Of a stretch of DNA of 64,000 bases, positions 15,801 to 54,924 are shown piece by piece (position 1 is the first letter of the stretch; every line of letters starts with the position of its first letter). The translations under genes were made by a program, and so were the position numbers. The DNA is taken from positions 744,001 to 808,000 of the forward strand of contig NW_026570273.1 in NCBI RefSeq assembly GCF_019649055.1, in the 5' to 3' direction. The notes beneath the pieces are model-generated. The model saw only the letters and a list, made by a program, of their open reading frames with translations. It made no database searches and was not told where the DNA came from. Source of the DNA: Paramacrobiotus metropolitanus. Taxonomy: Eukaryota; Tardigrada; Eutardigrada; Parachela; Macrobiotidae.

Positions 15801-16161
15801 ATGAGTTGCATTTGACCACTTTGGCTTGATACTACAGTTGCGAACTAGTCCACTCAGTTCTCCCGGAAGAAAATGTTAGTTAGATTTAAAATCAGATGGT
15901 GTGCGCTGAATACAAACATGTTATAAGCACTGGCAAACCGGAAAAGCTCATGGACAAAACGTTGATATGTGACGTGACATTCGACCATTCCGGGATGTGA
16001 AAGCAACACGACAGTGCATACTCATTTCATTTACTGTTGTAAAAAAGCCGCGCTTCCGAACATCTTCTATTTATAAACAGCACTAGTTCACAAGCTAGAC
16101 GATATTCTGCCCATTCGACAGTTCGCTATAACCGCGACATTTAACTCATAAAATCCTCAAA

Positions 16162-18569: not shown

Positions 18570-19155
18570 ATGCAAGACCAGTTGATTATCCATGTTGGCG
18601 AATTAGTCAGCGCAATTTTCCAAAAATTAGAAAGTTAGATGTTAATCGAGTTTGCGGAAATGAACAAAGCCGATGCACCGTCATTTAGCCGGAAAAGCAA
18701 TTTAGAACTTGTGGCGTAATGTTCGGTTGCATAAGTATGTTGCTGTTTTTTCTCTGTGCATGCTCGTATTATCGGATGTTGATGTGCGAGTGTGTGAGTC
18801 AGAGCAACAGTGTTCCTTATCGTGTGTTGCACATTCTTTTCAACGTAAACGCATCCACACGGAAGCCGACAGTTTAAATGATTGCAAATAAAGTACTACT
18901 ATAGCCCACATTTTAATTTTCATATTCGGAAACGTGCAGCAAACTGCCGGCGTGCATATTTCTCATCAGCCAAAATCTGTACCCAGCAAGGATTTCAAGT
19001 GGATGATACTTGAAAACAGTTGCTTTGCATGGAAGTCGTTCACTCCGATTCGACTTGCGGATTATCGAACCCTGTCATCCTTTCACGCCGGTATTCTGGT
19101 TTCCGGCCCGAAGAACCTGAGTTTCGTAATATAAGAAGAAGAACCTTCCGACGTG
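18570..19155. other. Spacer between phosphatase copies 2 and 3
   Basis: No supported gene. It should contain the promoter of copy 3 and the 3' end of copy 2. Confidence 0.4.
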
Positions 19156-22081
19156 ATGTACGCTGTAGTGTGTTTCTTGGTGTTGGCGGCGGTCAAGTGG
19201 GCAGCGTGCCAAAACACCGATCAGTATAACCAGTATACTCAGAGCTTGTTTCCGGATGGTAGCAGCGGCGGTACCTACGCTCCGTACATAGAGACTACAG
19301 CATATTCCAGTGCCAGCTATTCCGATTATACTGTCCCAACTACTGGTGTGAATGTTGCTGATGTGGAGCGCGCGGATGTGAGGATACAGAATGATTCGTT
19401 GCCTATATCAAACACTGAAGCGTCCGTTAGCCTGGATGAGCTATTACTTGTACAAGTGGTAAGCCGCCAGCGTCGCAGCAGATCTGCACACAACCGGCAA
19501 CGTATACTCTTTCCACAATTTTCGATAAAATCATAAAAAATTAATCTATTTTTGAAATTAATAAGTAAATTAAATTGTAAATAAAATTTTTGAGTAAATT
19601 AAATTAGCTTAATAGCATATGTTTTATTCTTTTGATCACATTTTTATGATAATTTTACATCATATCGCATTGGTATCCGTTTATAAAAATCTTCGCAACG
19701 TGTCTCGTGAATTTTGCGAGCTGCTTTAGTAAGGCTGCTTTTGCTATAATAAAAAAAAACGCTGCAAAAGTGTACAAATAATGCAGTAACCAGAAATCAC
19801 CATATTTTTTAAATGCGTTTTAACTATTGTTATATTTATTTGCTTTTCGTTTGTTATGACGGGTGCATACTACAAGAAAACCCCAACTAAATTGCTGGGG
19901 AAAACCCCAGCTACACATTCTGATTTATTAACTGATTCGTGCAACTGGATCATGAAATCTCGTTACCCGGCTTGCCTGCATGTTCGCACAATCTTAATTG
20001 TTTTGTAATTTGACTAAAAGGTTCATCGCCATGGAGAGCGCACATCCCTCTTCCAAATTCCCACCGCCGGCGAGGTACAACGCCAGAACAGTCCCTCCAT
20101 CGAAGCCCAGCTGACCTCCAACGGGATCCGACAAATGTACGAATACGGACAATTTATCCGCACCCGATACCACGCTTTCTTCGAGGACGGGGAGCGCGCA
20201 TCCAGTCAACGTATTAAAGTGATTTCCTCAGCCACCGATCGGACGATTAAGAGCGCCCAGGCCCTCATCGCCGGGCTGTTGCCGCCTAACGGTACGCGGC
20301 GCCAATGGAATACTCCGCTGGGAGAATACTGGAATCCATTTCCGGTGTACACGCGACCGCGCCATCATGATGCGCTACTGCTGAACTACGACATGGACTG
20401 TCCGGAATTTGCTAAGTTGCGCAACAGTATTGGGGAATTGCCGGCCGCTAAATTACTGCAGAATGAATTGCAGGTATTCTCGTACCGTCAGAATTATACA
20501 ACGAAAAAGGCATTCGACGTTTTTAAATAGTGTTGTTGTCTACCTCGCATATAAATCGTAAGATAACGAATTTTTGCACTGAGATAACTAATTCGGCTTG
20601 TACTTCAATTATTCTGAAAACTGTTGGGTTAAAGAAATATTTAATCCAACAAAAACATGAATGGATTAAGTAACAGTATTATAATCCATTTTTTATTTAC
20701 TGTGCTATCAGCTATTCGTTAGCTTCGATTTAATTAATCTGCGTTTATTCTACGAGTTATCAATTTTATTAGTCCTTAAAGCTTGCGCAGTGATAGAGGT
20801 TACTTTAAATTCCATGTTGATTTCAGGGATTTAAGGAAAATGTGATCAAAGCAACCGATGTCATGGAATACAACTTTTTCGAAACCACTACTCGCATCCA
20901 CGACGCGTTGCTGCATCAACAGCGTTACGCCAACGATAGCAGTTACCCGAAATGGATGAATCAAAGCCTGTACGACACCATGGACCGCATTGTCAATATG
21001 CGAATGCACTTGATTGTACGATTAATTATCTCTTTCACACGAGTAAATACGGCACTTGCCGACGGTAGTTAAGGTTACATCACTGCAGGCCGGCGGAAAC
21101 CGGGATCGGGTACGGACTCGCTTCCGCGTGGGACATTTGCTTAAAGAGATCGTCGACCGAATGAACACGGCCGGCCAAGCGTATAAAACTGGGAAGTCGA
21201 ACGAGCTGAAGATGGTTCTTTATTCTGGTGTAAGAATCACGCAACTGTAAATTGTCGCTTTGAAATTTAAAAAAAAACACGACCGTTGCTTAGCACGACG
21301 AAAACGTTGCTGGGATTTTGGCGGCGTTGGATTTGTTCAATTATACAGTGGCTGGACCCAACTTCGGCGTCCCAAAATTTACGGTAAGTCTCACCACAAC
21401 GATTTGCATCGGGTACTGCTTGATCGCAACTCTGTAGGCTTCCATCATTTTTGAATACTTCCGGAATAATACAGTGAGGGTTCTTTTCAAAAACGAGTAA
21501 GCTTACATCGCCTGAAATTAGTGAAGTTGATCAAGAGCTGCAGTTTACAAAATGACCTTTGTAGTCCCGACAACATGGCCGCCGACCCGAAAATTCTCGA
21601 TCCGCCGCACTGCGGTATCTACTGTCCATTAGATGCATTCACCGACCAGATTCGTGACCTTGATGGTTGGGAGAAGCGGAGTGGAAAGAAGAATGCGGGC
21701 TGAATAACTTCACTAGCAACGCAAACCATTCAACTACCACTGGTTCGAAGACTGGAATTTCATCTGAGAATGTGGAACACCTAAACTGAAGTTTTCTTTC
21801 CCTTTCATGTAGGCGTTATTGGCCTTCCGGAATCCATCATCATTGCCGGTGTACTGGTGGCTTTCTGCCTCCTTCTTTTAGTGGCGGCGATTGTTGGTGT
21901 GTGCCATTGGAGGATGCGACGCGTGACCTATCACCAGGCCTCACCGGTATTTGCCCAACCCCTGCGCAGTTCAGCACCCAAAGACGTGGAGAATGCTCCG
22001 CCGTCCCCGTTGGTGTATGTGCGTCCCAGTCAAAAGCTGCTGAATGCGGTGGAAAATGGTGTGCATGATTCACGGTTGTGA
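19156..22081 (+). CDS. Histidine acid phosphatase copy 3 with C-terminal membrane anchor; possible frameshift before the anchor
   Basis: Exons 19156-19458, 20021-20473, 20827-21015, 21089-21229, 21294-21383, 21438-21496, 21565-21742, 21813-22081. The ATG at 19156 starts a signal peptide (MYAVVCFLVLAAVKWAACQ). Then come a Ser/Thr/Tyr-rich segment, the loop RHGERTS (residues 104-110; Ser in place of Pro) and HD at 363-364. Copy 3 splits the exon that is single in copies 1 and 2 with an extra 73-bp intron. The last exon encodes one helix (IIIAGVLVAFCLLLLVAAIV) and a cytoplasmic tail, as in lysosomal acid phosphatase. Exon 7 is two bases long relative to copy 1 near 21662-21668. Read straight, the protein stops at TGA 21701-21703 before the anchor; with the shift it joins the anchor in phase. 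I cannot tell mutation from error. AATAAA lies at 22407. Confidence 0.75.
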
Positions 22082-33514: not shown

Positions 33515-33719
33515 CTAGGCGCGAAAGGCGCTTATTTCCTTTATCTGACAGAACACATCGATAAATTCAACAAGTTCTTCTCAACTTACATCAGTTCTTT
33601 GCGGCGTAGTATATACATATATTTATATGTATGTCCACCTTTCCGTACTCGTATTATCGTATTGATATTTAATTACGGGATTATAATTAATAATTAATTT
33701 GCAAAACACTCGCTTAATC

Positions 33720-35523
33720 ATGTCATCGACTGCGGCGCCTTCTAAGAAGAAGCTGAAATCAGACAGAGCAAAGCCTGTAACCATCGCTCCATTGCCCAGT
33801 ATCTCGACTGTTCCTTCTCCATCTGTGTCCACCATTCCATCTCCTGTTGCTACTACGGCGAAGCCACGCAAGCGAGCCACTCGGGACACTAGCCCACGCG
33901 GCTATAACACATGGAGTGAGAGCGAAGACAGAACCTTAGCTGACTGGCTTAGCGAGAAGGCAAACTACGACCGATGGAAATCTTCTGGGAAAAAGAAAGA
34001 GGGAGGAGAGAAGAAAATCCGTGTTGCTGCAGTCATTGGGGAGCACGTGGCAAAGGAATGCAACACCGAGCGAAGAACGGCTAAGCAAGTGAAGGACAAA
34101 ATCGGAACCTGGGAAGATAAGTACAAGAAAGCAAGCGACTGGGTGAACAATAATGGAGCGGGACTTGTTGATGCCAACCTGGATCGCGAAGGCAGATTGA
34201 AACAGCAGACGATCGAAGGTACTTATATACAAAACAGTGTGTGTTATGCCTTCAATGATTTTTGGATGCTGTCATTTGCATTGCAATTAAAAAAACTTAC
34301 AAAAAACAAATTTTAAAAAAATTTTAAAATTTAAATAGTCTTGATTTCACTGTATAAGAAGTTCTTGACAAATATTAAAAGGTTTCTTAATCTTGTAGAC
34401 CAAAATGTGAAGTTCCAAATTTTAAATCTGCAATGGCAGATCGTTTTCTTTTACTGAGAAAATAGGAAATAAGCAAAAACCTAATTTTTGAAAAAACATG
34501 TTTTTTGCATTTTTTGGGACATAACATTATGTAACAAGTAGTATTATATGACATTATTATAGACTTGTACATGTTGACTTTGTGTCAGCTGTTCTCTTAA
34601 CTTTTAGTTGCGGTGAAGAAAATGTTCAAGTACTTTTATGAACTGGATCCTGTTTTTGGCTGCCGCCCGGCCATTGAACCACCTTATATAAGCCAAACAG
34701 ATGTTGAGCCGCAGGACGATGAACGAATGTTGCTTGGCGACTCCGGATTACCGGGTAACGATATATATCTCAACCTTTATTGAGTTCCGTTTGCTGTTAT
34801 GCGGCAAAAAACCCCTATTACAAATTAGGGGAAAAGGCACGCATAACCTATTCTTTTTTCAAAGTTTTGTAAACAAAACTCGTGCAACGGAAGCAACAAT
34901 AAGGTAAAAAGACCGCTTGCTCTCCTCTACTTTACACATGGATTTTTTTTTTTGGTATTTTAAAAAAGGAACATATAAAGAACAGATTACATCGAATAAA
35001 GAGTATGGAAAGGACAATCACAATACAAATTATGCGGGATATGTGGCAAACCACAGTGCAACACACACCAGATGAGTCTGCGGCATCACAGTCTTCAAAA
35101 TCAACCGACCTGCGCGTGGCTGCTGAGGTGCAACAAGGCGATGAAGAGTTCAAGAGCTACAACGACATGCGGTTGGACGGCGACGTTCTGGATTCCGATT
35201 CTGACACCGATAAACCAAGCCGCTATACTAAAGAAATCAATGGGAAGACGTCGAAAACCAAAGTCAAGCCGGCTTCCAAGGCGCCGCTGTCATTTAGTGA
35301 GACTTTACTGCAACTGGACAGGACTCATGCCAGCCAGATAGAGAAACAGATGGAGCTTTCCCGTATGCGCATTGAACAGAAAGCTAAACTGGAGCAAGAT
35401 AGGATAGATTTACAGCGGAAACAGTTGGGGGGAGATGACAAAGACCGAAAAATTAAGGAAACGGAACAAGAGCTGCGCCGGATGGAGCTTCGCATTAGAA
35501 TGCGAGAATTAGGAATGGAATAA
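33720..35523 (+). CDS. Myb/SANT-like DNA-binding protein of the Harbinger element
   Basis: Exons 33720-34218, 34608-34754 and 35057-35523 join in phase to 1113 nt (370 residues). A Pro/Ser-rich, basic N-terminus leads to a Myb/SANT-like trihelix domain at about residues 62-140, with tryptophans at 65, 76 and 131 and the block TAKQVKDKIGTWEDKYKKA. Exon 3 encodes an acidic stretch (DSDSDTD) and a long charged coiled coil (SRMRIEQKAKLEQDRIDLQR...ELRRMELRIRMRELGME). In known Harbinger elements this partner binds DNA and the transposase and brings the transposase to the nucleus. The ATG at 33720 is the first in frame. Both introns have normal GT-AG borders and no lesion is visible. Confidence 0.8.
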
Positions 35524-35772
35524 AGGGCTGTTTTAACGCCAGTTGGCAGGTCTGTATTTCCGGCACATGACCAGTCTTATTGTGCAACAATTTTCTTATC
35601 ATCGTTGTTTTATGTACTCGTATAATTAGTTCTTATTATTGTTTATGTGTGTTGCTTTTATACTTGTACAATTACAGTTACAATGGTACATATTACAGTA
35701 CTTTACAGCGTAACGCAAATAACAGCGGTGTTTTTATTTCTTCATACAAGTATTGATTTGCCACATTAAAAA

Positions 35773-37050
35773 TTACTCAGCCATGCTTGTTAGTACAGCA
35801 TTTTTAATTCGTTCTCTTTTTTGTGATCCTTCTTCCGCTAGAGGAACGATTTCATCCGCTTCGTTGCCGGGTTCATCAGATGCCCGTTTAGGTAGCTCAC
35901 CCCATGTTGGATCATAAGGATCTCTTGTATCGATGCAAATGTTATGTAATACAGTACATGCACGGAACCACATAACTGCCCGAGCGTGATCAGCTTTGCA
36001 TGCAATTAATACTCGTAGACCTTTTAAGCACTGAAACCGGTTTTTTAACATACCGATGCAATGTTCGACTTTAACTCTCAGACGGGAATGCTGCTTATTA
36101 AATCGCCGGTTGGCAATACTTCTTTCTTTTTCGCCTTTCCGGTATGGGGGCAAAACTGTGGTGCTTACAGCATAAGCGCTGTCGGCAAGTATATATTCAT
36201 CCTTTTTGAAGTACTTTCCCGAATTACGCCAAAGCTCGGTATTCTTGTAAACGCGACTGTCATGAGTTGCACCCGTAAAACCACAACACGTATACGTAAT
36301 CCGTTTGTTGTCATCGCATACTACCATTGCGGAAAGGGAGTAGCTCTTCTTTCTGCTGAAATAATCTTCTCCATTCAGTGCCGGCTTGACAGCCAGGACG
36401 ATGTCAGTTCCGTCCACAAATCCAATGCAGCTTGGGAAATGGTGACTGGACTTAATCCGGTGTTTAATTTCCTTTTTTTCGGCTGATGTTGGCCACCGCA
36501 CTACGTCTTTTTCGATAGAAATTAAAGCCAGTATTACTCGCCTTGTGCTTAAATCCACCGTTCCTTCTGATACGCCGAACTTTCGAGCAACACATCCCAC
36601 AAAAGCAGCATTTCCGGATGAACCCAACCGGCATAAAGAAATGGCCAGTTGCTTTCGAACAGGCATTTGAGAGTAGTTAGATTTGTTTGTAAAAATTTTA
36701 TGATTCGAAATCCGGTTAAGAATTTCTTCAAATGTTGTACGGGACATTCGCATTTCTTGCCGGAAACGATTATCGTCCAAATTAAAAAGTAGGTCGTCAT
36801 AAAAAGCGTGGGATTTCGGGATAGAATGCCGCTCCACATATTTTACATGATCAAGATACAGCCGCAACATAATTGGTGATGTTAGGTCATCCAACAATCC
36901 ACTACAGTAGTTTTCATCTTCAGATGAATCGGATTCACTGCTACTGCTTTCGACTTTCAGCTGATAATTTAAAATTTCCTGGGATTTTTTCCGCAATATG
37001 ATGTGCTCAAGTAATGTGGCAGCTGACTGACGGAAACTGCGCCTTGGCAT
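35773..37050 (-). CDS. PIF/Harbinger DDE transposase
   Basis: An intronless 425-residue frame starts at the ATG at 37050. An acidic Ser-rich segment at 34-47 is followed by a helix-turn-helix (about 150-173, VARKFGVSEGTVDLSTRRVI) and a DDE_4-type catalytic core. Asp213 lies in GFVDGTDI, Asp290 in YILADSAYAV and Glu329 in RVKVEHCIGMLKNRF. ATHDSRVYKNTELW (261-274) is the usual conserved block between the first two acidic residues. All three catalytic acids and the C-terminal region (HNICIDTRDP) are present, so the protein looks functional. It excises and inserts the element together with the convergent Myb-like protein; the two stops are 250 bp apart. Confidence 0.92.
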   Translation of the reverse strand: MPRRSFRQSAATLLEHIILRKKSQEILNYQLKVESSSSESDSSEDENYCSGLLDDLTSPIMLRLYLDHVKYVERHSIPKSHAFYDDLLFNLDDNRFRQEMRMSRTTFEEILNRISNHKIFTNKSNYSQMPVRKQLAISLCRLGSSGNAAFVGCVARKFGVSEGTVDLSTRRVILALISIEKDVVRWPTSAEKKEIKHRIKSSHHFPSCIGFVDGTDIVLAVKPALNGEDYFSRKKSYSLSAMVVCDDNKRITYTCCGFTGATHDSRVYKNTELWRNSGKYFKKDEYILADSAYAVSTTVLPPYRKGEKERSIANRRFNKQHSRLRVKVEHCIGMLKNRFQCLKGLRVLIACKADHARAVMWFRACTVLHNICIDTRDPYDPTWGELPKRASDEPGNEADEIVPLAEEGSQKRERIKNAVLTSMAE

Positions 37051-37395
37051 TTTAGCAAACTATAGTTTAATTATTTACGGAATAATAAATGCAATCGCAA
37101 GCGGTGTTCCGATAGTACTCGTAATAACCGCAATAATAATAACCGATAGTAATAACCGCAAGTAATTATTTACGTTATAAGTTAACAAGTAGATGTATGT
37201 AGACGGTATAGCACATGCTGCCACAATAAAATGATGTCCTACAGCAGTGCAAAAGCAAGAAAAGCTGTCGGGTTTAGCGCTCTCGAAGTAAGACGGCGTG
37301 AAGGAATGTGTGATGCATGATCAGTTTTTGTTTACTGGTTCATATTTTTATGCATCAACAATCACGTCCGCTGATAATCGCGGCGAAAATATTCA

Positions 37396-37416
37396 GCGTA
37401 TTCAGTTTCGAATACC
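37396..37416 (-). repeat. Right terminal inverted repeat of Harbinger element
   Basis: Complement of 33332-33352 with one mismatch. Confidence 0.85.
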
Positions 37417-37473
37417 ACCATTTATTTATTCATGTCATTAACGTGTCTTAAAAAAATTAAAATTCTTTTCACC

Positions 37474-37728
37474 TTATTCTGCAGATGATTGCTTACAAAT
37501 GAAACCGGGATGATGTTTCCGGGAAACGAAAAGCGGATCGACTTTTTCAAAAGTGCTGCCGAGGTAACCAGCCTTTTTCAATAAAACGACGAAGGTTATT
37601 AAAGTTATTACGGAGCCGGTGATAACATTATGCTTATTGGCGGCAGCGCGTAGCCAGCGATTTGGGGATGACAATGCTGGTACTGCCACCATCCGTTCTC
37701 GATGACCTTTCAATTCAGCAACTGACAT
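37474..37728 (-). CDS. Possible 84-residue single-pass membrane protein at the satellite edge
   Basis: The ATG at 37728 (MSVAELKGHRERMVAVP) opens an 84-residue frame with a basic segment (RWLRAAANKH), one hydrophobic helix (NVITGSVITLITFVVLLKKAG) and a polar tail ending KQSSAE. The layout resembles small mitochondrial or ER membrane proteins, but I do not recognise it. The start codon lies in CATGT, the first bases of the first satellite unit, so the array abuts or created the present start. The frame is also open backward into the array, hence an earlier start cannot be excluded. The 3' side is 58 bp from the Harbinger end. Confidence 0.4.
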   Translation of the reverse strand: MSVAELKGHRERMVAVPALSSPNRWLRAAANKHNVITGSVITLITFVVLLKKAGYLGSTFEKVDPLFVSRKHHPGFICKQSSAE

Positions 37729-40700
37729 GTACGGCAACCGGCTTCGCCGGTGCCGCACATGCGAGTATATCAGCCGGGCTTGGCGGCCCCCGCTACTGGT
37801 ACGACTGATAAACTCACATGTACGGCAACCGGCTTCGCCGGTGCCGCACATGCGAGTATATCAGCCGGGCTTGGCGGCCCCCGCTACTGGTACGACTGAT
37901 AAACTCACATGTACGGCAACCGGCTTCGCCGGTGCCGCACATGCGAGTATATCAGCCGGGCTTGGCGGCCCCGCTACTGGTACGACTGATAAACTCACAT
38001 GTACGGCAACCGGCTTCGCCGGTGCCGCACATGCGAGTATATCAGCCGGGCTTGGCGGCCCCGCTACTGGTACGACTGATAAACTCACATGTACGGCAAC
38101 CGGCTTCGCCGGTGCCGCACATGCGAGTATATCAGCCGGGCTTGGCGGCCCCCGCTACTGGTACGACTGATAAACTCACATGTACGGCAACCGGCTTCGC
38201 CGGTGCCGCACATGCGAGTATATCAGCCGGGCTTGGCGGCCCCGCTACTGGTACGACTGATAAACTCACATGTACGGCAACCGGCTTCGCCGGTGCCGCA
38301 CATGCGAGTATATCAGCCGGGCTTGGCGGCCCCCGCTACTGGTACGACTGATAAACTCACATGTACGGCAACCGGCTTCGCCGGTGCCGCACATGCGAGT
38401 ATATCAGCCGGGCTTGGCGGCCCCCGCTACTGGTACGACTGATAAACTCACATGTACGGCAACCGGCTTCGCCGGTGCCGCACATGCGAGTATATCAGCC
38501 GGGCTTGGCGGCCCCCGCTACTGGTACGACTGATAAACTCACATGTACGGCAACCGGCTTCGCCGGTGCCGCACATGCGAGTATATCAGCCGGGCTTGGC
38601 GGCCCCGCTACTGGTACGACTGATAAACTCACATGTACGGCAACCGGCTTCGCCGGTGCCGCACATGCGAGTATATCAGCCGGGCTTGGCGGCCCCGCTA
38701 CTGGTACGACTGATAAACTCACATGTACGGCAACCGGCTTCGCCGGTGCCGCACATGCGAGTATATCAGCCGGGCTTGGCGGCCCCCGCTACTGGTACGA
38801 CTGATAAACTCACATGTACGGCAACCGGCTTCGCCGGTGCCGCACATGCGAGTATATCAGCCGGGCTTGGCGGCCCCCGCTACTGGTACGACTGATAAAC
38901 TCACATGTACGGCAACCGGCTTCGCCGGTGCCGCACATGCGAGTATATCAGCCGGGCTTGGCGGCCCCCGCTACTGGTACGACTGATAAACTCACATGTA
39001 CGGCAACCGGCTTCGCCGGTGCCGCACATGCGAGTATATCAGCCGGGCTTGGCGGCCCCGCTACTGGTACGACTGATAAACTCACATGTACGGCAACCGG
39101 CTTCGCCGGTGCCGCACATGCGAGTATATCAGCCGGGCTTGGCGGCCCCGCTACTGGTACGACTGATAAACTCACATGTACGGCAACCGGCTTCGCCGGT
39201 GCCGCACATGCGAGTATATCAGCCGGGCTTGGCGGCCCCCGCTACTGGTACGACTGATAAACTCACATGTACGGCAACCGGCTTCGCCGGTGCCGCACAT
39301 GCGAGTATATCAGCCGGGCTTGGCGGCCCCGCTACTGGTACGACTGATAAACTCACATGTACGGCAACCGGCTTCGCCGGTGCCGCACATGCGAGTATAT
39401 CAGCCGGGCTTGGCGGCCCCCGCTACTGGTACGACTGATAAACTCACATGTACGGCAACCGGCTTCGCCGGTGCCGCACATGCGAGCATATCAGCCGGGC
39501 TTGGCGGCCCCGCTACTGGTACGACTGATAAACTCACATGTACGGCAACCGGCTTCGCCGGTGCCGCACATGCGAGTATATCAGCCGGGCTTGGCGGCCC
39601 CCGCTACTGGTACGACTGATAAACTCACATGTACGGCAACCGGCTTCGCCGGTGCCGCACATGCGAGTATATCAGCCGGGCTTGGCGGCCCCCGCTACTG
39701 GTACGACTGATAAACTCACATGTACGGCAACCGGCTTCGCCGGTGCCGCACATGCGAGTATATCAGCCGGGCTTGGCGGCCCCCGCTACTGGTACGACTG
39801 ATAAACTCACATGTACGGCAACCGGCTTCGCCGGTGCCGCACATGCGAGTATATCAGCCGGGCTTGGCGGCCCCCGCTACTGGTACGACTGATAAACTCA
39901 CATGTACGGCAACCGGCTTCGCCGGTGCCGCACATGCGAGTATATCAGCCGGGCTTGGCGGCCCCCGCTACTGGTACGATCGATAAACTCACATGTACGG
40001 CAACCGGCTTCGCCGGTGCCGCACATGCGAGTATATCAGCCGGGCTTGGGCCCCCCGCTATGGTACGACGATAAACTCATGTACGGCAACCGGCTTCGCC
40101 GGTGCCGCACATGCGAGTATATCAGCCGGGCTTGGCGGCCCCGCTACTGGTACGACTGATAAACTCACATGTACGGCAACCGGCTTCGCCGGTGCCGCAC
40201 ATGCGAGTATATCAGCCGGGCTTGGCGGCCCCGCTACTGGTACGACTGATAAACTCATGTACGGCAACCGGCTTCGCCGGTGCCGCATGCGAGTATATCA
40301 GGCTTTGGCGGCCCCCGCTATTGTACGACTGATAACTCACATGTACGGCAACCGGCTTCGCCGGTGCCGCACATGCGAGTATATCAGCCGGGCTTGGCGG
40401 CCCCATACTGGTACGACTGATAAACTCACATGTACGGCAACCGGCTTCGCCGGTGCCGCACATGCGAGTATATCAGCCGGGCTTGGCGGCCCCGCTACTG
40501 GTACGACTGATAAACTCACATGTACGGCAACCGGCTTCGCCGGTGCCGCACATGCGAGTATATCAGCCGGGCTTGGCGGCCCCCGCTATTGGTACGACTG
40601 ATAACTCACATGTGCGGCAACCGGCTTCGCCGGTGCCGCACATGCGAGTATATCAGCCGGGCTTGGCGGCCCCGCTATTGGTACGACTGATAAACTCACA

Positions 40701-43700
40701 TGTACGGCAACCGGCTTCGCCGGTGCCGCACATGCGAGTATATCAGCCGGGCTTGGCGGCCCCCGCTGTTGGTACGACTGATAAACTCACATGTACGGCA
40801 ACCGGCTTCGCCGGTGCCGCACATGCGAGTATATCAGCCGGGCTTGGCGGCCCCCGCTGTTGGTACGACTGATAAACTCACATGTACGGCAACCGGCTTC
40901 GCCGGTGCCGCACATGCGAGTATATCAGCCGGGCTTGGCGGCCCCCGCTACTGGTACGATCGATAAACTCACATACGGCAACCGGCTTCGCCGGTGCCGC
41001 ACATGCGAGCATATCAGCCGGGCTTGGCCCCCTGCATTGTACGACTGATAACCACATGTACGGCAACCGGCTTCGCCGGTGCCGCACATGCGAGTATATC
41101 AGCCGGGCTTGGCGGCCCCCGCTGTTGGTACGACTGATAAATACATGTGCGGCAACCGGCTTCGCCGGTGCCGCACATGCGAGTATATCAGCCGGGCTTG
41201 GCGGCCCCCGCTACTGGTACGACTGATAAACTCACATGTACGGCAACCGGCTTCGCCGGTGCCGCACATGCGAGTATATCAGCCGGGCTTGGCGGCCCCG
41301 CTACTGGTACGACTGATAAACTCACATGTACGGCAACCGGCTTCGCCGGTGCCGCACATGCGAGTATATCAGCCGGGCTTGGCGGCCCCGCTACTGGTAC
41401 GACTGATAAACTCACATGTACGGCAACCGGCTTCGCCGGTGCCGCACATGCGAGTATATCAGCCGGGCTTGGCGGCCCCCGCTACTGGCGGCGACTGATA
41501 AACTCACATGTACGGCAACCGGCTTCGCCGGTGCCGCACATGCGAGTATATCAGCCGGGCTTGGCGGCCCCGCTACTGGTACGACTGATAACTCACATGT
41601 GCGGCAACCGGCTTCGCCGGTGCCGCACATGCGAGCATATCAGCGGGCTTGGCGGCCCGCTATGGTATGACTGATAACCACATGTACGGCAACCGGCTTC
41701 GCCGGTGCCGCACATGCGAGTATATCAGCCGGGCTTGGCGGCCCCTGCTACTGGTACGTCGATAACCATGTACGGCAACCGGCTTCGCCGGTGCCGCACA
41801 TGCGAGTATATCAGCCGGGCTTGGCGGCCCCGCTACTGGTACGACTGATAAACTCACATGTACGGCAACCGGCTTCGCCGGTGCCGCACATGCGAGTATA
41901 TCAGCCGGGCTTGGCGGCCCCCGCTACTGGTACGACTGATAAACTCACATGTACGGCAACCGGCTTCGCCGGTGCCGCACATGCGAGTATATCAGCCGGG
42001 CTTGGCGGCCCCGCTACTGGTACGCTGATCGATAACATGTACGGCAACCGGCTTCGCCGGTGCCGCACATGCGAGCATATCAGCCGGGCTTGGCGGCCCC
42101 GCTACTGGTACGACTGATAAACTCACATGTACGGCAACCGGCTTCGCCGGTGCCGCACATGCGAGTATATCAGCCGGGCTTGGCGGCCCCGCTACGGTAC
42201 GATGATAAACTCACATGTACGGCACCGGCTTCGCCGGTGCCGCACATGCGAGTATATCAGCCGGGCTTGGCGGCCCCGCTACTGGTACGACTGATAAACT
42301 CACATGTACGGCAACCGGCTTCGCCGGTGCCGCACATGCGAGCATCAGCCGGGCTGGCGGCCCCCGCTACTGGTACGACTGATAAACTCATGTACGGCAA
42401 CCGGCTTCGCCGGTGCCGCACATGCGAGTATATCAGCCGGGCTTGGCGGCCCCGCTACTGGTACGACTGATAAACTCACATGTACGGCAACCGGCTTCGC
42501 CGGTGCCGCACATGCGAGTATATCAGCCGGGCTTGGCGGCCCCGCTACTGGTACGACTGATAAACTCACATGTACGGCAACCGGCTTCGCCGGTGCCGCA
42601 CATGCGAGTATATCAGCCGGGCTTGGCGGCCCCCGCTACTGGTACGACTGATAAACTCACATGTACGGCAACCGGCTTCGCCGGTGCCGCACATGCGAGT
42701 ATATCAGCCGGGCTTGGCGGCCCCCGCTACTGGTACGATGATAACCATGTACGGCAACCGGCTTCGCCGGTGCCGCACATGCGAGCATCAGCCGGGCTTG
42801 GCGGCCCCTCACATTGGTACGACGATAACTCACATGTACGGCAACCGGCTTCGCCGGTGCCGCACATGCGAGTATATCAGCCGGGCTTGGCGGCCCCGCT
42901 ACTGGTACGACTGATAAACTCACATGTACGGCAACCGGCTTCGCCGGTGCCGCACATGCGAGTATATCAGCCGGGCTTGGCGGCCCCGCTACTGGTACGA
43001 TTGATAAACTCACATGTACGGCAACCGGCTTCGCCGGTGCCGCACATGCGAGTATATCAGCCGGGCTTGGCGGCCCCGCTACTGGTACGACTGATAAACT
43101 CACATGTACGGCAACCGGCTTCGCCGGTGCCGCACATGCGAGTATATCAGCCGGGCTTGGCGGCCCCGCTACTGGTACGACTGATAAACTCACATGTACG
43201 GCAACCGGCTTCGCCGGTGCCGCACATGCGAGTATATCAGCCGGGCTTGGCGGCCCCGCTACTGGTACGACTGATAAACTCACATGTACGGCAACCGGCT
43301 TCGCCGGTGCCGCACATGCGAGTATATCAGCCGGGCTTGGCGGCCCCGCTACTGGTACGACTGATAAACTCACATGTACGGCAACCGGCTTCGCCGGTGC
43401 CGCACATGCGAGTATATCAGCCGGGCTTGGCGGCCCCCGCTACTGGTACGACTGATAAACTCACATGTACGGCAACCGGCTTCGCCGGTGCCGCACATGC
43501 GAGTATATCAGCCGGGCTTGGCGGCCCCCGCTACTGGTACGATTGATAAACTCACATGTACGGCAACCGGCTTCGCCGGTGCCGCACATGCGAGTATATC
43601 AGCCGGGCTTGGCGGCCCCGCTACTGGTACGACTGATAAACTCACATGTACGGCAACCGGCTTCGCCGGTGCCGCACATGCGAGTATATCAGCCGGGCTT

Positions 43701-44817
43701 GGCGGCCCCGCTACTGGTACGACTGATAAACTCACATGTACGGCAACCGGCTTCGCCGGTGCCGCACATGCGAGTATATCAGCCGGGCTTGGCGGCCCCG
43801 CTACTGGTACGACTGATAAACTCACATGTACGGCAACCGGCTTCGCCGGTGCCGCACATGCGAGTATATCAGCCGGGCTTGGCGGCCCCGCTACTGGTAC
43901 GACTGATAAACTCACATGTACGGCAACCGGCTTCGCCGGTGCCGCACATGCGAGTATATCAGCCGGGCTTGGCGGCCCCTGCTACTGGTACGACTGATAA
44001 ACTCACATGTACGGCAACCGGCTTCGCCGGTGCCGCACATGCGAGTATATCAGCCGGGCTTGGCGGCCCCGCTACTGGTACGACTGATAAACTCACATGT
44101 ACGGCAACCGGCTTCGCCGGTGCCGCACATGCGAGTATATCAGCCGGGCTTGGCGGCCCCGCTACTGGTACGACTGATAAACTCACATGTACGGCAACCG
44201 GCTTCGCCGGTGCCGCACATGCGAGTATATCAGCCGGGCTTGGCGGCCCCGCTACTGGTACGACTGATAAACTCACATGTACGGCAACCGGCTTCGCCGG
44301 TGCCGCACATGCGAGTATATCAGCCGGGCTTGGCGGCCCCGCTACTGGTACGACTGATAAACTCACATGTACGGCAACCGGCTTCGCCGGTGCCGCACAT
44401 GCGAGTATATCAGCCGGGCTTGGCGGCCCCGCTACTGGTACGACTGATAAACTCACATGTACGGCAACCGGCTTCGCCGGTGCCGCACATGCGAGTATAT
44501 CAGCCGGGCTTGGCGGCCCCGCTACTGGTACGACTGATAAACTCACATGTACGGCAACCGGCTTCGCCGGTGCCGCACATGCGAGTATATCAGCCGGGCT
44601 TGGCGGCCCCGCTACTGGTACGACTGATAAACTCACATGTACGGCAACCGGCTTCGCCGGTGCCGCACATGCGAGTATATCAGCCGGGCTTGGCGGCCCC
44701 CGCTACTGGTACGACTGATAAACTCACATGTACGGCAACCGGCTTCGCCGGTGCCGCACATGCGAGTATATCAGCCGGGCTTGGCGGCCCCCGCTACTGG
44801 TACGACTGATAAACTCC
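37726..44817. repeat. Satellite/minisatellite array, about 79 units of 90-91 bp
   Basis: Units start CATGTACGGCAACCGGC and follow head to tail. The 90/91 difference is four or five C in the GGCCCC(C)GC run. Each unit has two foldbacks. The first runs from CATGT to ACATG around ACCGGC-TTC-GCCGGT. The second has arms GAGTATATCAG and CTGATAAACTC. Units at 37726-40040 and 42834-44817 are nearly identical; those at about 40040-42830 carry many small deletions and substitutions. GC content is far above the flanks. Open frames run through in several phases on both strands, a result of the stop-poor unit, and change frame with each C4/C5 switch, so they are not coding. Confidence 0.97.
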
Positions 44818-47639
44818 TATGTACGGAAGGCTTTGCAGCGCGCTTCATTGAAGTACGAGTACTACTGCTTATTTACGCTACTTTATTTTCTACTGCGCCT
44901 ACTGGGTACGGTCTACCGTATAATTCTACATTAACTACTGCCCTAGCCACTAACCTACGTTGAACGGCCCAGCCGTTAAGGAAAACGAAATTTTACTATT
45001 TGGCTCTTACCATTAACGCGGACACATGCGGTGTCATCGAAAAATAATACAAATCCTTAAAATCTGCAGCAATAAATCATTTTAAATTATTATCGCTTAT
45101 TTATACAATGTACTTATTCATGAGCGATCAGTTACATACATTATCATGTGTAAATTCGTTAAATTAATACGATCTATGACTGAATCGATTTTTGCGTATT
45201 ACGATTATGTACTATACTTTTCGTGGCAGTCCACGCAAAATAGGCTGCTTAAAGGGCACTTTTGCTTTACTATACCGATTTTGCTTTCGGCAATGAAAAA
45301 GCGATATACGTGCGAATAAATAAAGAATAAATAATTAGGTTTCATTGAAGCATTATTGTCCATGTTGCGCAAATTGAATATGTGCAGCATGGACCGGGGA
45401 ATTATGCGCTAATTATTTAACCAGAAATATTATCCATAATATGTTCCGCTGATCGAGCATATGCGTTCCCTTTCAGAATTCAGCGGGAATATTTCAGCCC
45501 GTGGTTTTGGATGTTAATTGTGATGTTTTGCGGACTAAAACAATTGAATTTAAAGAAAGCTTTTACAGTTTGCTTGATGTTTTGCATTTTTAGATATTTC
45601 CTTTACTTATATAATTTACAGAATTATGTATATATTTGTTGTATAGGCAAGTGCTGCAACGCTTTTTTTGCGACTACAAAAATTTCAACGAAAATCGAAA
45701 AAATTAAATCAAAACAGCCACTGTGCTACGGCACAATGACACAACACCCATATCTTGCGAAATTTTAATTAAATTATTAATTATATTTGATTACTACCCT
45801 TCGCTTAATTCCAATTTGTAGCTCATTATTTTTTGAAAAACGTAATTTTGTTATTATTTTTGAAATATGCAATTCAACAATTATATGCGTTTTCATAAAA
45901 TGTAAAATGCAACCAGCATTATCAAATATTCTGCAATCAGTGGCGGAATTAATCACTGTGGATCCATAAGTCGGCTTGCATTTTGAAGCTGCCAGACACT
46001 TCTAAATCGTCCAGGGAAAACTCAGGAAAAATCTCGAAAAGCATAGCGCAAGAAAAAATTTAAAAAAATTAAAATTCTCAAAATTTGCTTTGCTACTGAC
46101 GACATAGTTCAGTCTCCATATTAAAAATTATCACATATCGCTGCACAATTTACCCCCGTAATCAGAACATATTAACACTGTGTGCCTATTTTCAGCAACA
46201 AACTTTCAGTTAATCCGTAAAACGAGCTCACTCTTAATAATTCCGAATGCGCCTCAGTTTACGACAGGCCTCAACAATTCAAAAAAAATCTCTGTTAAAA
46301 TGCAGAACAAAAATTGCCACAGCAGTTAAACGACTCAAATTTTAAAAAAAAATAGAAATCAATGAATATTTAAATATAAGGCACTAGTTTACAATGTTTT
46401 TAATAAATTAAGTAATTTTATTTTCCATAATTACAGTTTGCACCGTGTAATAATATTTATCATTTTGAATTTTAATATTCAGTAAATGTCCAAGTTAAAT
46501 CAAATTGCACCGGTGCTGCAATTTATTGTTTTATTCTCTGTTAGTACTGATTTTAATATTGGACTTACAGATACAGATACAAGTTGCAATTCGTGATTCT
46601 CGCCGAGAATGCAGACTGGCAGTGTGTCGTTTTGACGTCACTAACATACAGGGATTTTACGGTGCGCCAACAGGAGAACTACGCATTCGCTCTGTTTCTG
46701 TTCGCGTGCTGTCATATGGGCGGTGGTGTGATACCGTGGTAATAGCACTGTCGCTTAATTTAAGAATATTGTAAATATTTTTATCACACGTTTTTTCTCG
46801 TTTGAAGAGGATAGTTTTCTGTAAATTTTCATGTACCTGCCCAATTAACAAACATCATGGTTTGCAAAAACGCGCTGTTTAAAAAGTGCCGGGATAAGCA
46901 CTTGTTGTTATGGGCCTACGATGACTTCCCGGCGCGCCTTAGGCGCACGGCTCCCAACCGCCACAGGGCGCCATCCGGGCGAGAATCGTCAATCAGTCAG
47001 AAATTATCCTCGCTGCTGTATTAAAAAAGTTCGATAACCGGGAAGGAAGAAAAGGAAATTAAATAGACGATGATTTGGGCACCGGGAAAAAGTACTCGTA
47101 ACAGACTTACAGAGTAGTTCAAATAAAATAAAAATTTGTTCAAATAAAATAAAAATATAAATCAGTCAAAATAAAATAAATCAGAAATTATTAATTTATT
47201 TGGGGCGGTTCTGTAGAATGAGGTACAGTAAGTACAGATACTTAACGAATTTCGTCGGGTTACTTAGGACATAAACTCGCCACTTCACGCCACTTCTTCG
47301 CTCTTGATCATTAGGGCGTGTTTAATACTGTTTTAACTTTTAAATCATTATTTTGTGATTTGCCACTATTTTTCCCGTTCTCCATTTTCCAATTTATTCC
47401 GTATTGTTTTTTAGTTTCCGGATCTCTTCAGGTTTGTTGTTGATAAATTAAATGGACACGGGTCACACGGGCCAGATTGTCATCTGACATCCACGACATT
47501 CGCGCCCGCCGGACCAGCAAATGCTCGCTGCTGATGAAATCTCTGCACAGTCCGTTGCGCTCATCGCCGCGAGCCAAAACTGGACGATCCACGACGCGCT
47601 CACCTTCCACCGCGCGCAGCTCTCCCGCAGCTTCCCCGC
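44818..47639. other. AT-rich intergenic region, no gene seen
   Basis: The last partial satellite unit decays at 44818-44830. Near 47110-47150 an 18-bp word (TTCAAATAAAATAAAAAT-like) occurs twice. No supported gene. Confidence 0.4.
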
Positions 47640-50600
47640 GCTTTTTTCCGCCGGGTGGGCATTTTCGCGGGGGCCTGTGGCATCTTTTACATGTGGCATC
47701 TGTCCAGTTTGTTTGAAAATGATCGGCTCTTCTGTCTTTTCGCATTTATCGCAGCTGGAACGGGAAATGACATTCCGTACGGAACAAGTGAGGTTTTATA
47801 TGGCGTATCTGGTGTTTGTCCTGTAGACGAAGTGACTGCTGCCGTACGTTGTACAGGGTTTGATAATAGCTACCGTGTTTAACTTTACGTGATCGCATTT
47901 TGTCTGCTGGTTTTCTCACTTTTCTGTTGCTTTTTAAATTTTCGAGGATTCTAACATTTCTGCTCAAACATTCTTAATTTAATATGGTTTAATGTTGTTT
48001 ATTTGTCAGGAAAACGTTACTGGTAGTGGCTTGATGGGTATTTACGCCATCTGATCCTTTACTTGGTTAAATAATTTTGAAAAAACCTGATTTAATTCGT
48101 TCAGTCATTTTTTACAAATAATTTATAATTTATTTTTTTGTCTGGCCGGTTGTGAGCCTGGTAAACTGTGGCTAATTTTTCCCTGTTTTTAGGGACTGTA
48201 TTATTAGTTTTACAAACGCATTGTGGAGGCGCCGAGCTTTTCCAACAGCGTGATGGAGATTATATGCACGACACCAGCACGGAATATCCCAACAAAGTCA
48301 ACTTCATTAATCGCTGCATTCTTTATCCGGAAGAAGGTCTGTGCTCCTTGTTAATTTGCCGTGATTCAGATTCAATTATCGACAGTTTTCTTTACCGTTA
48401 TGTAATGTCAACTAATGCGTCTTTTTTCGCCTCATTATTACCTTCGTTTTGACTCGTTTGTTTAAAACTTTAAATATAAACGCAAAAAGTGTGATATATT
48501 AGGTTTTCAAAGCTAGATTATTTTAAAATATTCCTGTTCTTAAGCACCTGAAAAATCTAATTGATATTTTTTGCTTAAAGTACAAATATTCTGATTGATA
48601 CTGTTTTACAATTTTATCACTTCGGCGCGAGCCAGAACGTTACAGAGGAAATTATGAACCCGCGTATGCTACGATAACTTGCATTTAACCACTGTATGCA
48701 AAATTATTCAGTTGAAAACTGCAGGAAGTGTTTCAGAGCTGTTGAAGATACTTCCCGCAGCTTATGCTTGGCCAAATAAATTCAAAATATGTCCTGTTTT
48801 TATTAAAATGAAAAACTCTTGAGAATTGAGAAGTAAAAACTTCGTTGAAAAATGAGTGAAAAACTGAAAGCGTGTGTTACCATACTGGAATGCGCTGAAT
48901 TGTGATAGGTTTTTCTGACTGGCATATCTAGCCAGTAAAGTCCTGTTTTTTTTTCAAAGGGAAAAATCTTTAAATTTGAAGATAAAAAAATTGAAATGAA
49001 AAATTAGTGTGAAAATGAAAAATTAGTGTGAAACATTATAAGAGCTTGATATTGATTATAAGAGCTTGAAAACACTATCGCGATAGGTTTTTCTGGCCGG
49101 CGTCTACCGCATCTACTCCACCGTCACCCGATGTCCTCGACATAACCACCGTGCCGTGTTTCCGCGTCAACCGCAGGGCCGGACACTCGTCGGCGACGGC
49201 CTGCACGGGTCTGGGAGATCTCTTTTACCTGTAATTACTGGGAGTGTTCGGTCTGAACGGTCTGCCGTTGGGCGTCCTCTTTTTGACCGGCTGGCTGCTC
49301 AGCGAGAGCGTCGGCGGCGGCGTCATCACACTGCACTGTGCTTCCTGTTCTACCACGGGGGAAGCCACGCGGGTCATGTGGACGCCGCCGCTGCGCGAGA
49401 GCTTCGGCTATCCCTTCTTCGTCATGGAGATGATGGCCGTGGCGTATCTGGTGAAGACGGGCTCTCGCAGCTGGCAAATGAACGCGCTGGTGGGCGTGAC
49501 GTCGGGGCTGTTTATTCTGCAGTGGCAGGTGAATTTAATTGTAAGATGGTGTTTTTCATTTTTATGGTATTAGTATTTACTGATGTTTTTACTCGTACTT
49601 AATTTTTTTTTGGATTTTTGCCTGAGCACAAATTCGGCTCCTGGATGTTTTAGTATTTGAAAAATAATTTACTAGATTATTATAGATTTTCCTGTGGCAT
49701 CTTGCTTTTTGTCATATTTCAAATTTTGGAAGACTAAAAAATGCTGGTAATTGTTTTGATTGAGAATTAAGCTACTCCAGCTTTGTCAGGAATGTAATAT
49801 TAAGTACGGTTGTCGTGAATAATTTGATTAATAATTACTGCAATAATATTTTAGAATTCTGTATAAGTATTTCATTAAAGATTGCGTAATTATTCCTTAA
49901 TTGGCCAATGTTACCGATAACTACAGAATTTGCTCCGTTTAAAAATTCGCATCTAATTGTTTTTTTCAAACTTGCTTTCTTTATTTCATAGTTGGCCATT
50001 TTCATCGGTGTATCAATTGTTTTAATTTAAAAATTCCCTTATTTTTTGAGACTTTCAGATTTGTAATATTTTTTTAATTGGCAATTTTGGCCGATATTTT
50101 GATTTTAGTCTGTTTAAAATTTCCGTTTAAACGTGAGTATTTTCCGCAGTTGGCTCCCTTTATCCCTTTCGCAGACCGGCGTCCTGCTCTTCCTCTTCAC
50201 CGCCTGCTACCGGAAGTACGCCCTCCTGGAGTTCTTCTTCCTTTTGACGGAATTCTTTGCCGTCCGCAAGGTGCAGCTGGCCGAACGTTTCGGCTACATG
50301 ACGTGCTGGCGGATGGCCGAGTTTATCGGGTGTGTGCTGCTGGTGCCGGTGTGGATGATGCGCATATCAGGCAGATTGTCCGGGCCGGATTCACCAGCTG
50401 GAAGAATTTCCATACCATGCTGTATATGTGCGCGCCGGAGTTTGATTTTATTGGAGGTATAGTTGCTACATTCGTTGCGGGATTTCCGATTAATTTGGCA
50501 CACGTGGAAAATAACAATTACAATTTTTATTACACTAATTATTATTAATGATTAAAATTATTTAGTTATGATTTATTAGTTTTAAATATTAATAAATATT

Positions 50601-50937: not shown

Positions 50938-51746
50938 GGAACGTTTCGTACCAAAGAAAAAAACTGGAACGTTTTTTTCGTTCTTGTAGTCACTGTAGTC
51001 ATCCGTAGACAACCTGTAGACTCCCTGTAGACAACCTGTATACATCCTAAGAAAACCTAAGAAACCAGGTGACTACAGTATGTCTACAGTGGTGTCTACG
51101 GGCTGTCTACAGGTGACTACCGGTGTATACAGGCAGAGTATCGAGCTGATGCTAAGAAGGGCTCCCTGTATACAGCGGTAGACATCTGTAGACATCCTGT
51201 AGATATCCTGTAGATATCCTGTGGACAGCCTGTAGACAACCTGTATACATCCTAAGAAAACCTAAGAAACCAGCTGACTACAGTATGTCTACCTGGGTGT
51301 TTACGGGCTGTCTACAGTGCGTCTACAGATGTATACAGCAGAACATCCAGCTGAACCTACGAAAGCCTGCCTGTATACACCGGTAGACATCTGTAGACAA
51401 CCGGTAGACACCCTGCAAACAACCTGTAGACACCCTGTAAACATCCAAAAAAGCCTAAGAAACCAGGTGACTACAGTGTCTACAGTGGTGTCTACGGGCT
51501 GTCTACAGATGACTACCGGTGTATACAGGCAGAGTATCGAGCTGAACCTAAGAAAGGGTGCCTGTATTCAGCGGTAGACATCCGTAGACAACCTGTAGAC
51601 ACCGTTGTAGACACGCGGTATACATCCTAAGAACCAGGTGACTACCGATAGGTCTACAGAGTGTCTACAGCATGTATACAGATGTCTACTGTGACTACAA
51701 GGTGCGAAAAAACGATTCACTTTTTTTCCTTGGTACGAAACGTTCC
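50938..51746. mobile_element. Inverted-repeat element with internal foldback tandem repeats
   Basis: The ends are GGAACGTTTCGTACCAAAGA (50938) and its complement ending at 51746, matching imperfectly for about 57 bp inward to TTGTAGTCAC. The interior is about 3.5 units of roughly 200 bp, marked by CCTAAGAAACCAGGTGACTAC near 51050, 51255, 51455 and 51630. In each unit CTGTAGACA words on one side face TGTCTACAG words on the other. No coding frame. It sits in a lost-intron region of the DPY19 relic. Confidence 0.7.
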
Positions 51747-52752: not shown

Positions 52753-53002
52753 ATCCTACCAAATTTACCAAGTAACGGTATGAACTACCAAATTTTGTCC
52801 CCTTTGCGTAAATGTGGTGAAATGCTTAGAAAATATATTTTTGCTTGGGTTTATTGTTTAAAATAAATTTGTTTTTGCTTTATGATTGTTGTTATGTTTA
52901 TTTCTGCTACGGCAGATGCCATGTTTGCCGACCCGATGGCCACACCATAGCCAACCTGAGCACCGGACGTCCGATTGTCAACCATACGCATTACGAGAAT
53001 GC

Positions 53003-54270
53003 GTAGATACAGTCAGCGATTTTGAATAGTAATTTAATCTAATTCCAAATTTCTTGTATAATTTGATCAGGTTTTATTATGGCTATGTTTTCAGGGAGAA
53101 AACGTTGAGCGTGTATTAGATGTACAGCCGGAAATCCCCGCGGCAAGTCCACCGTATCTATCGGCAGTTGGGCGTGAGTTATGTCGTCTTTGAGAATTTC
53201 TACTGCTGGCGCAGACACAAGAAGGTTTTCCTGCAGGATTGATGAGTGTACGAGAGTATGATGAATCGTAGAGCCGTGGCTGTGCGCGTACATCTAACTT
53301 GTAAACGTAGTGGTTTTCATGTACACCATTGTACGACAGTACCAGTACAATTATAATAAGCACGTTCTGCTGAACAAAGTAATTTTAAAATACTCACATC
53401 ATGGAATTTTTTCACGGTTATTATTTGTACCATATTTTATTTCCGTATTTGTACAGTATAAAATACCTATAATTGCCTATAAATGTGCAGTCGTTGTAAT
53501 TGCCCATATACTCGTACTGTATTATAGTAAAATATACTTGTACAGTACTTCCAGTTGTATGTTAAGTTTCATGTGATGTTCCTAAATTTCTATCGTGCCG
53601 AAAACTGATTTTCGCTTGAGTTTTTCGTCAGCCTTTTTTTACCAGATTTCTCCTCTTAGCGCTCACACATTATTTGGCATTTATTCTTGATCAAAGCGAT
53701 TAAAAGTACACCACAGTATCGAAACGATTTATATCGAATATAGAACTAATCTAAACCCTAGATAAACATCAAAATTAAATTTGGAAAGCGGATAAAAGGT
53801 TCAAAGTCGTTTAATTTAAATGAATAAAATCACAACAAAATGATAATGGGGAAGAAATTTAAATTTGATTAAGAAAATTAAATCGGATGGTATCACCAGT
53901 ACATGTATGATATATCGTAGAGTAACTGGAGTTGTGGCTAAGTGCGTTTAACAGAGTGATGTTTGATTTTTTTCCGAGTGATACTGTAGCATGCGAAACC
54001 GCGGTAATCATGGAAAATTATGATTGAATTTATATCGGCAACCAATTTAAATTAAACTGAGAAAATTAAAGCGGATTTGTTTCGAGCGATATATTACGCG
54101 AAAGCGCTGGATTATTCTAATTAAATGCCAATTACAGAGTACAGTATGTATTCACTAAAAAAAGTGTGGATGTATATATTCGAAATGAATTCTAGAAAAT
54201 TGGTAACTGATTTTTTAGTGAAGGATGTCGTACGAGAAATCATTGCGACATTAATTGATCATGTTTGTAG
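53003..54270. other. Intron-like gap of the DPY19 relic
   Basis: No exon of the family and no other gene is recognised between the two last DPY19 blocks. Confidence 0.4.
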
Positions 54271-54924
54271 AGCGGGCTGCGCGGTGCCGGAGACGTAGGA
54301 TGTGGAGGCGCCGGCGCGCCGACTACGAAGCGTGCTGCTGGCGGGTGGCCTCCGATCCTTATCCCTTACGCGGATGCACGGGAACGACGTCTACGAGATC
54401 CTCTAAGTGTGAAGAACGCCCGCACTGTGAATGGATGCCCTAGTCTCTTAACTCCGTTGATCGCGGAATGTGTTTTTTTATAATGAATTTTCTTGCCGGT
54501 TTTTTGCAGCGTGCGTGCAAAAAATCTGTGTGTGTGTGATCTGTGTTTCGTAATAAAGTTCTTGCCACAGATTTTCGTTGTGAGTCTGTGACCAGAATAT
54601 TGTATGATACGTGTAGATTTTTTCTGATCGGTTCTTTTTTTGGACCCACAGAAGGTTTTTGTAATATTTCTGGGCGATATGCCGGGCCACCGGAAAGCTT
54701 TCGGTGTTCATCGGTTTTTGAGAGGGCTTGTACAATACATGCATGTAGCAGAGCAGTTTTACGAAAACACTGTGTTTGTTCTGATTTTAGAATAATAGTA
54801 ATCAAATTTAATAATTTAACGACATAAACTGGCATTACGGAATTATTTTTATTGTTCTCTGAACAAGGTAGATCACACTGTTGTTTTTTAATTATTAAGA
54901 TTATTTCTGCTATTTACTTGCTTG

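Follow-up and report, generated by a model that had tools for sequence, protein, structure and literature searches.

Dyad symmetry is a feature of some satellite DNAs, TmSat2 of Tribolium madens being an example, in which a dyad of about 600 bp lies within a 704-bp monomer (PMC13081366). The repeat that we describe here shares with such satellites a monomer whose internal inverted repeats can form hairpins or cruciforms, but theirs are multi-megabase (peri)centromeric arrays, whereas ours comes to ~13 kb in total, lies at a gene flank, and consists of 90-bp units, each composed of two short palindromes. The TCAST-like elements of Tribolium castaneum (PMC3411249) resemble it in forming short arrays dispersed in euchromatin near genes, without a signal of local homogenisation. 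Those elements occupy 68 sites near many genes, however, while we find seven sites that belong to one gene family and share the same collinear position. Concerted evolution of arrays on different chromosomes has been reviewed (PMC8122249), and there too units are homogeneous across loci; here, in contrast, the flanks are decaying paralogous pseudogenes, so the divergence of array and flank can be contrasted directly. MITEs and foldback elements likewise have a hairpin-forming unit, but dispersal and target duplications are both missing from the present case. We think it probable that this repeat is a minisatellite of the 5' flank of DPY-19 that was copied along with the gene, and that has since been homogenised across dispersed loci by exchange.

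The window, meaning the whole 64,000-nucleotide stretch of Paramacrobiotus metropolitanus DNA that was analysed, contains the following array and, within its first unit, two hairpins.

37720-44826, plus strand: tandem array of ~79 units of 90/91 bp (Tandem Repeats Finder, TRF; unit count)
37726-37761, unstranded: hairpin 1 of the first unit, CATGTACGGCAACCGGCTTCGCCGGTGCCGCACATG (sequence; z -5.35 against 2000 shuffles)
37763-37815, unstranded: hairpin 2 of the first unit, with arms GAGTATATCAG at 37763-37773 and CTGATAAACTC at 37805-37815 (sequence and fold; z -2.27 alone)

TRF reports a period of 90, 79.2 copies and 96% matches, and a count of hairpin cores gives 79, spaced by 90 bp (37 cases), 91 bp (25) or otherwise 84-92 bp, the two main lengths corresponding to a C-run of four versus five C. 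These head-to-tail copies of a non-coding unit place the array among satellite or minisatellite DNA. A coding repeat was also considered and rejected, as long open frames occur only in pieces, broken by the mixed 90/91-bp spacing. Each unit consists of hairpin 1 (36 nt) followed by hairpin 2, and the two have CATG in common at their junctions, so that the array reads nearly alike on either strand. Hairpin 1 has the form CATGT-A-CGGC-A-ACCGGC-TTC-GCCGGT-GCCG-C-ACATG, with 15 bp paired, one A.C mismatch and one bulged A; in hairpin 2, the two arms listed above pair with each other around a G+C-rich inner stem.

The predicted folding of the unit is stronger than that of dinucleotide shuffles, which we ran in sets of 200 and of 2000. 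As DNA, a single unit folds at -22.4 kcal/mol (z -3.2), and as RNA it reaches z -4.3, with 0/200 shuffles as good in either case; the reverse strand reaches z -6.0. An RNA trimer folds at -154 kcal/mol (z -11.6), and in that prediction the pairing shifts in part from hairpins to unit-with-unit duplexes. Against 2000 shuffles the unit gives z -4.75 and hairpin 1 z -5.35 (0/2000 for both), while hairpin 2 alone reaches only z -2.27 (42/2000); we therefore rate hairpin 1 as strong and hairpin 2 as moderate. Aligned in circular form with its own reverse complement, the unit scores 36, the maximum for shuffled sequence being 26. An Rfam search with the unit gave no family match near threshold. The initial annotation had described about 79 copies of a 90/91-bp unit divided into two inverted repeats meeting at CATG, which TRF and the core count bear out; its figure of 13/15 paired positions in the arms of hairpin 2 is correct, and the comparison of unit and trimer with shuffled sequence that it had proposed came out in its favor.

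We searched the whole assembly (169.8 Mb, 533 contigs) for the unit, the copy numbers below being those of the assembly, in which stretches are possibly collapsed. Arrays occur at seven loci only: C53 (the window), C172, C56, C70, C54, and, both on contig C8, C8a near 465 kb and C8b near 1120 kb. Ranked by size they hold about 79, 25, 21, 11, 3, 3 and 1 copies, ranging from the ~79 units of C53, through the 3-unit arrays of C70 and C8a, which have unique flanks, to the single unit of C54. Their summed length is about 13.1 kb, with 143 recognisable cores. Hairpin 1, allowing ≤3 mismatches, has 142 sites in the genome against 0 for a backward-read control, and the seven arrays account for these 142. 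An exact match to the hairpin was not found in viral or prokaryote contigs. The unit may act as a landmark for replication or chromatin, as the initial annotation suggested. The long, abundant centromeric arrays that define a centromeric satellite are not what we see, and a centromeric role is unlikely for ~13.1 kb in a 169.8-Mb assembly, possible gaps notwithstanding, located at a gene flank and made of a unit that lacks a CENP-B box.

Outside the arrays we found just three fragments of the unit: a 72-bp inverted piece at C56:644133, 45 kb from the C56 array; a 53-bp inverted piece at C54:278267, about 0.8 kb from the C54 unit; and one at C57:774544. The last of these is located at the tip of a foldback MITE (C57:774349-774719, L016) with TAGTGACGTTGCGCAA termini and many copies of about 160 bp, a MITE unrelated to the unit, and is made up of two stretches of the unit that meet at the common word CTGGTA. 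No target duplications were seen at any of the three fragments, which look like template-switch scars, as would fit a break-prone hairpin. These data bear on the proposal of the initial annotation that the unit may have expanded from a foldback mobile element, and equally on its reading as a MITE. The palindromic build of the unit and the fragment in the C57 MITE tip would agree with such an origin, but the assembly holds no dispersed full units, with or without target duplications, the unit is absent from the other sampled copies of the C57 MITE, and the arrays always sit at one collinear gene position. We consider a foldback origin extremely improbable. The search for dispersed single units that the annotation had suggested thus tells against this part of it, while its folding claim stands; what it missed is the tie of the arrays to the copies of one gene.

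That gene is DPY-19, which encodes a C-mannosyltransferase. At all seven loci the array lies in one collinear position, directly upstream of a DPY-19 copy or its flank, and searches with the flank, the first exon, the exon 3-4 region, the 3' exons and PF10034 found no DPY-19 copy without an array, so that, within the limits of the genome search, the association is complete both ways. Unit-like sequence was not found in other parts of the DPY-19 loci. Matches to PF10034 were obtained at C172, C53, C70, C8a and C8b, and at C172 the exon pieces, joined by eye rather than taken from a verified transcript, match the C. elegans C-mannosyltransferase dpy-19 in a PDB comparison (7zlg, E 2.7e-85). The C172 exon pieces are open and cover most of the family profile, and this copy looks intact. 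The copies at C53, C70, C8a and C8b are relics with stops or frame changes within exons, and C56 and C54 have kept the 5' flank alone, with no recognisable exon; judged from these reading frames, the host gene looks dead at six of the seven loci. In the window, the edges of the array, the DPY-19 relic and an adjoining transposon are arranged as follows.

33687-37426, unstranded: Harbinger-type transposon adjoining the array, outside the described system (Pfam; copies of 37060-37426 elsewhere at up to 98-99%)
37690-37722, plus strand: left edge also present at other loci, GATGACCTTTCAATTCAGCAACT (seven-locus alignment)
44810-44854, plus strand: right edge, CTCCTATGTACGGAAGGCTTTGCAGCGCGCT, near-identical at C53, C54, C56 and C8b (alignment; pairwise identity 90% over the first 28 bp, then 47-68%)
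44827-45060, plus strand: DPY-19 family upstream flank, with 73-84% identity to its counterparts at the other array loci (genome search)
47489-47805, plus strand: remains of the first DPY-19 coding exon detected, now spread over three frames (tblastn with C172 peptides)
48193-48332, plus strand: DPY-19 exon relic with one stop and a frame change (tblastn with C172 peptides)
49130-49561, plus strand: DPY-19 exon relic, 79% amino acid identity to the C172 gene, one stop (PF10034 search; tblastn)
50136-50542, plus strand: DPY-19 exon relic with a frame change (tblastn with C172 peptides)
52944-54403, plus strand: 3' DPY-19 exon relics with a stop in each (PF10034 search; tblastn; 3' exon search)

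Within this relic, at 51051-51601, there is a second tandem repeat, with a 205-bp period of 11-bp CTGTAGACAAC-like words that are partly inverted. The Harbinger-type transposon has a DDE_Tnp_4 transposase open reading frame at 35773-37059 on the minus strand, plus two further open reading frames, and the near-identity of its end to copies elsewhere indicates a recent insertion, at a distance of about 300 bp upstream of the array. We rejected the array as a part of this transposon, since the repeated end stops at about 37426, ~300 bp short of the array, and the copies elsewhere are unmatched beyond that point.

The similarity between loci extends well to the right of the array, as sequence 2.5-3.4 kb beyond its right flank also recurs at other array loci. 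The sequence abutting the array at C172 has its counterpart in C8a and C70 some 380 bp farther downstream, which points to a local deletion at C172, the loci being otherwise collinear. On the other side, going upstream from the array, the loci lose their similarity within tens of bases, as they might if array and DPY-19 copy had moved together in a gene-capturing transposon whose terminus was the array. We regard this as very improbable: C53 and C8b resemble each other (69%) over another 130 bp, located about 115-290 bp upstream of their arrays, and the seven-locus alignment shows no common terminus or target duplication.

Arrays and flanks have diverged to very different degrees. Relative to C172, the other DPY-19 copies are mostly 62-80% identical over about 9.5 kb including introns, and with C8a and C8b reaching up to 85% identity to each other the overall range between copies is about 62-85%. 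The unit consensus, on the other hand, is shared unaltered by C172, C8a and C8b; at C53 and C70 its C-run differs by one C, and at C56 it differs by one loop base, near-fixed and private to that locus, that leaves the stem of hairpin 1 unbroken; the single unit of C54 is about 97% identical. The mean number of differences per unit is 3.73 in comparisons within a locus and 3.76 in those between loci; C172, C53 and C56 have several minor variants in common. To the left of the array, identity is 99.5% in the first unit and falls to 59% and then 28%, while to the right a near-identical collar of about 28 bp remains, and identity falls from 90% to 57-68%. Since flanks that are 25% diverged would predict ~22 differences per unit in the absence of exchange or constraint, neutral drift cannot, we infer, explain the identity of the units, which are more alike than the divergence of their loci predicts, as in a satellite under concerted evolution. 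Tandem homogenisation within C54 is not the cause at that locus, where a lone unit is still ~97% identical; the private base at C56 argues against free exchange at every locus.

Identity across loci would likewise result from purifying selection, and the unit could be a regulatory or structured-RNA element (an enhancer, insulator, promoter element or source of double-stranded RNA) that is kept at each copy by its function, with or without conversion. The array has been lost at 0/7 copies, the fold is strong on both strands, and the stem of hairpin 1 varies less than the remaining columns (6/30 variable columns against 37/55, p 3.6e-5), a test that is weak because the divergent units cluster mid-array, are deletion-rich and perhaps contain read errors. 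Against selection, the arms of hairpin 2 vary without compensation, no Rfam family was found, copy number ranges from 1 to 79, and cis-regulation of six host genes that look dead would be pointless. On balance, selection appears an unlikely explanation, though one with some weight.

The near-identity might also be partly an artefact of assembly, in which noisy long reads were polished with short ones that align to every unit. The Paramacrobiotus sp. TYO assembly (170.5 Mb, GC 43.5%) was made from Nanopore reads with Illumina polishing (PMC8277472), which would apply here if that is the assembly we searched. Trehalose synthase genes, which that paper deals with, occur in the searched assembly; as for a nematode origin, a control search for cuticle collagen gave no hit, although it matched nowhere at all. 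In the window array, moreover, divergent units are confined to the deletion-rich middle (units 25-57), with perfect units at either end, which is the opposite of the usual satellite pattern and the reverse of what unequal exchange predicts; these middle units may hold uncorrected long-read errors. Polishing, however, cannot convert a divergence of 20-35% into identity, and the 3-unit arrays with unique flanks at C70 and C8a also match the consensus. As a partial source of the identity, an artefact is quite improbable.

Returning to homogenisation by exchange, the minisatellite would have arisen in the 5' flank of DPY-19 before the gene was duplicated. Gene and array would then have been copied to at least six other sites, at the DNA level because introns are retained in the copies, and the duplicates would have decayed into pseudogenes. 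Throughout, the arrays would have swapped sequence, most likely by ectopic gene conversion together with unequal exchange, leaving units near-identical genome-wide. The two-hairpin unit may itself trigger this exchange, as hairpins or cruciforms would stall replication and be cut, and repair could then copy from any other array. A bolder idea, which we put forward tentatively and think rather unlikely, is that the unit is a self-homogenising recombination hotspot that overwrites itself across the genome while its genes rot, or else that the arrays of dead copies are kept for a role in trans, for example as double-stranded RNA. With seven paralogous loci whose flanks have diverged measurably, and with arrays that range from 1 to 79 units, the system is a natural experiment, on a small scale, in the pace at which tandem arrays at dispersed loci become alike, and in whether units that form hairpins do so more quickly. 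Its result would bear on why dyad symmetry is so common among satellites.

Elsewhere in the window, a histidine acid phosphatase (branch 2) gene is present in at least three tandem copies at 13740-20530, and a non-LTR-type reverse transcriptase open reading frame (RVT_1) with an N-terminal zinc-finger-like motif lies at 334-2684 on the minus strand.
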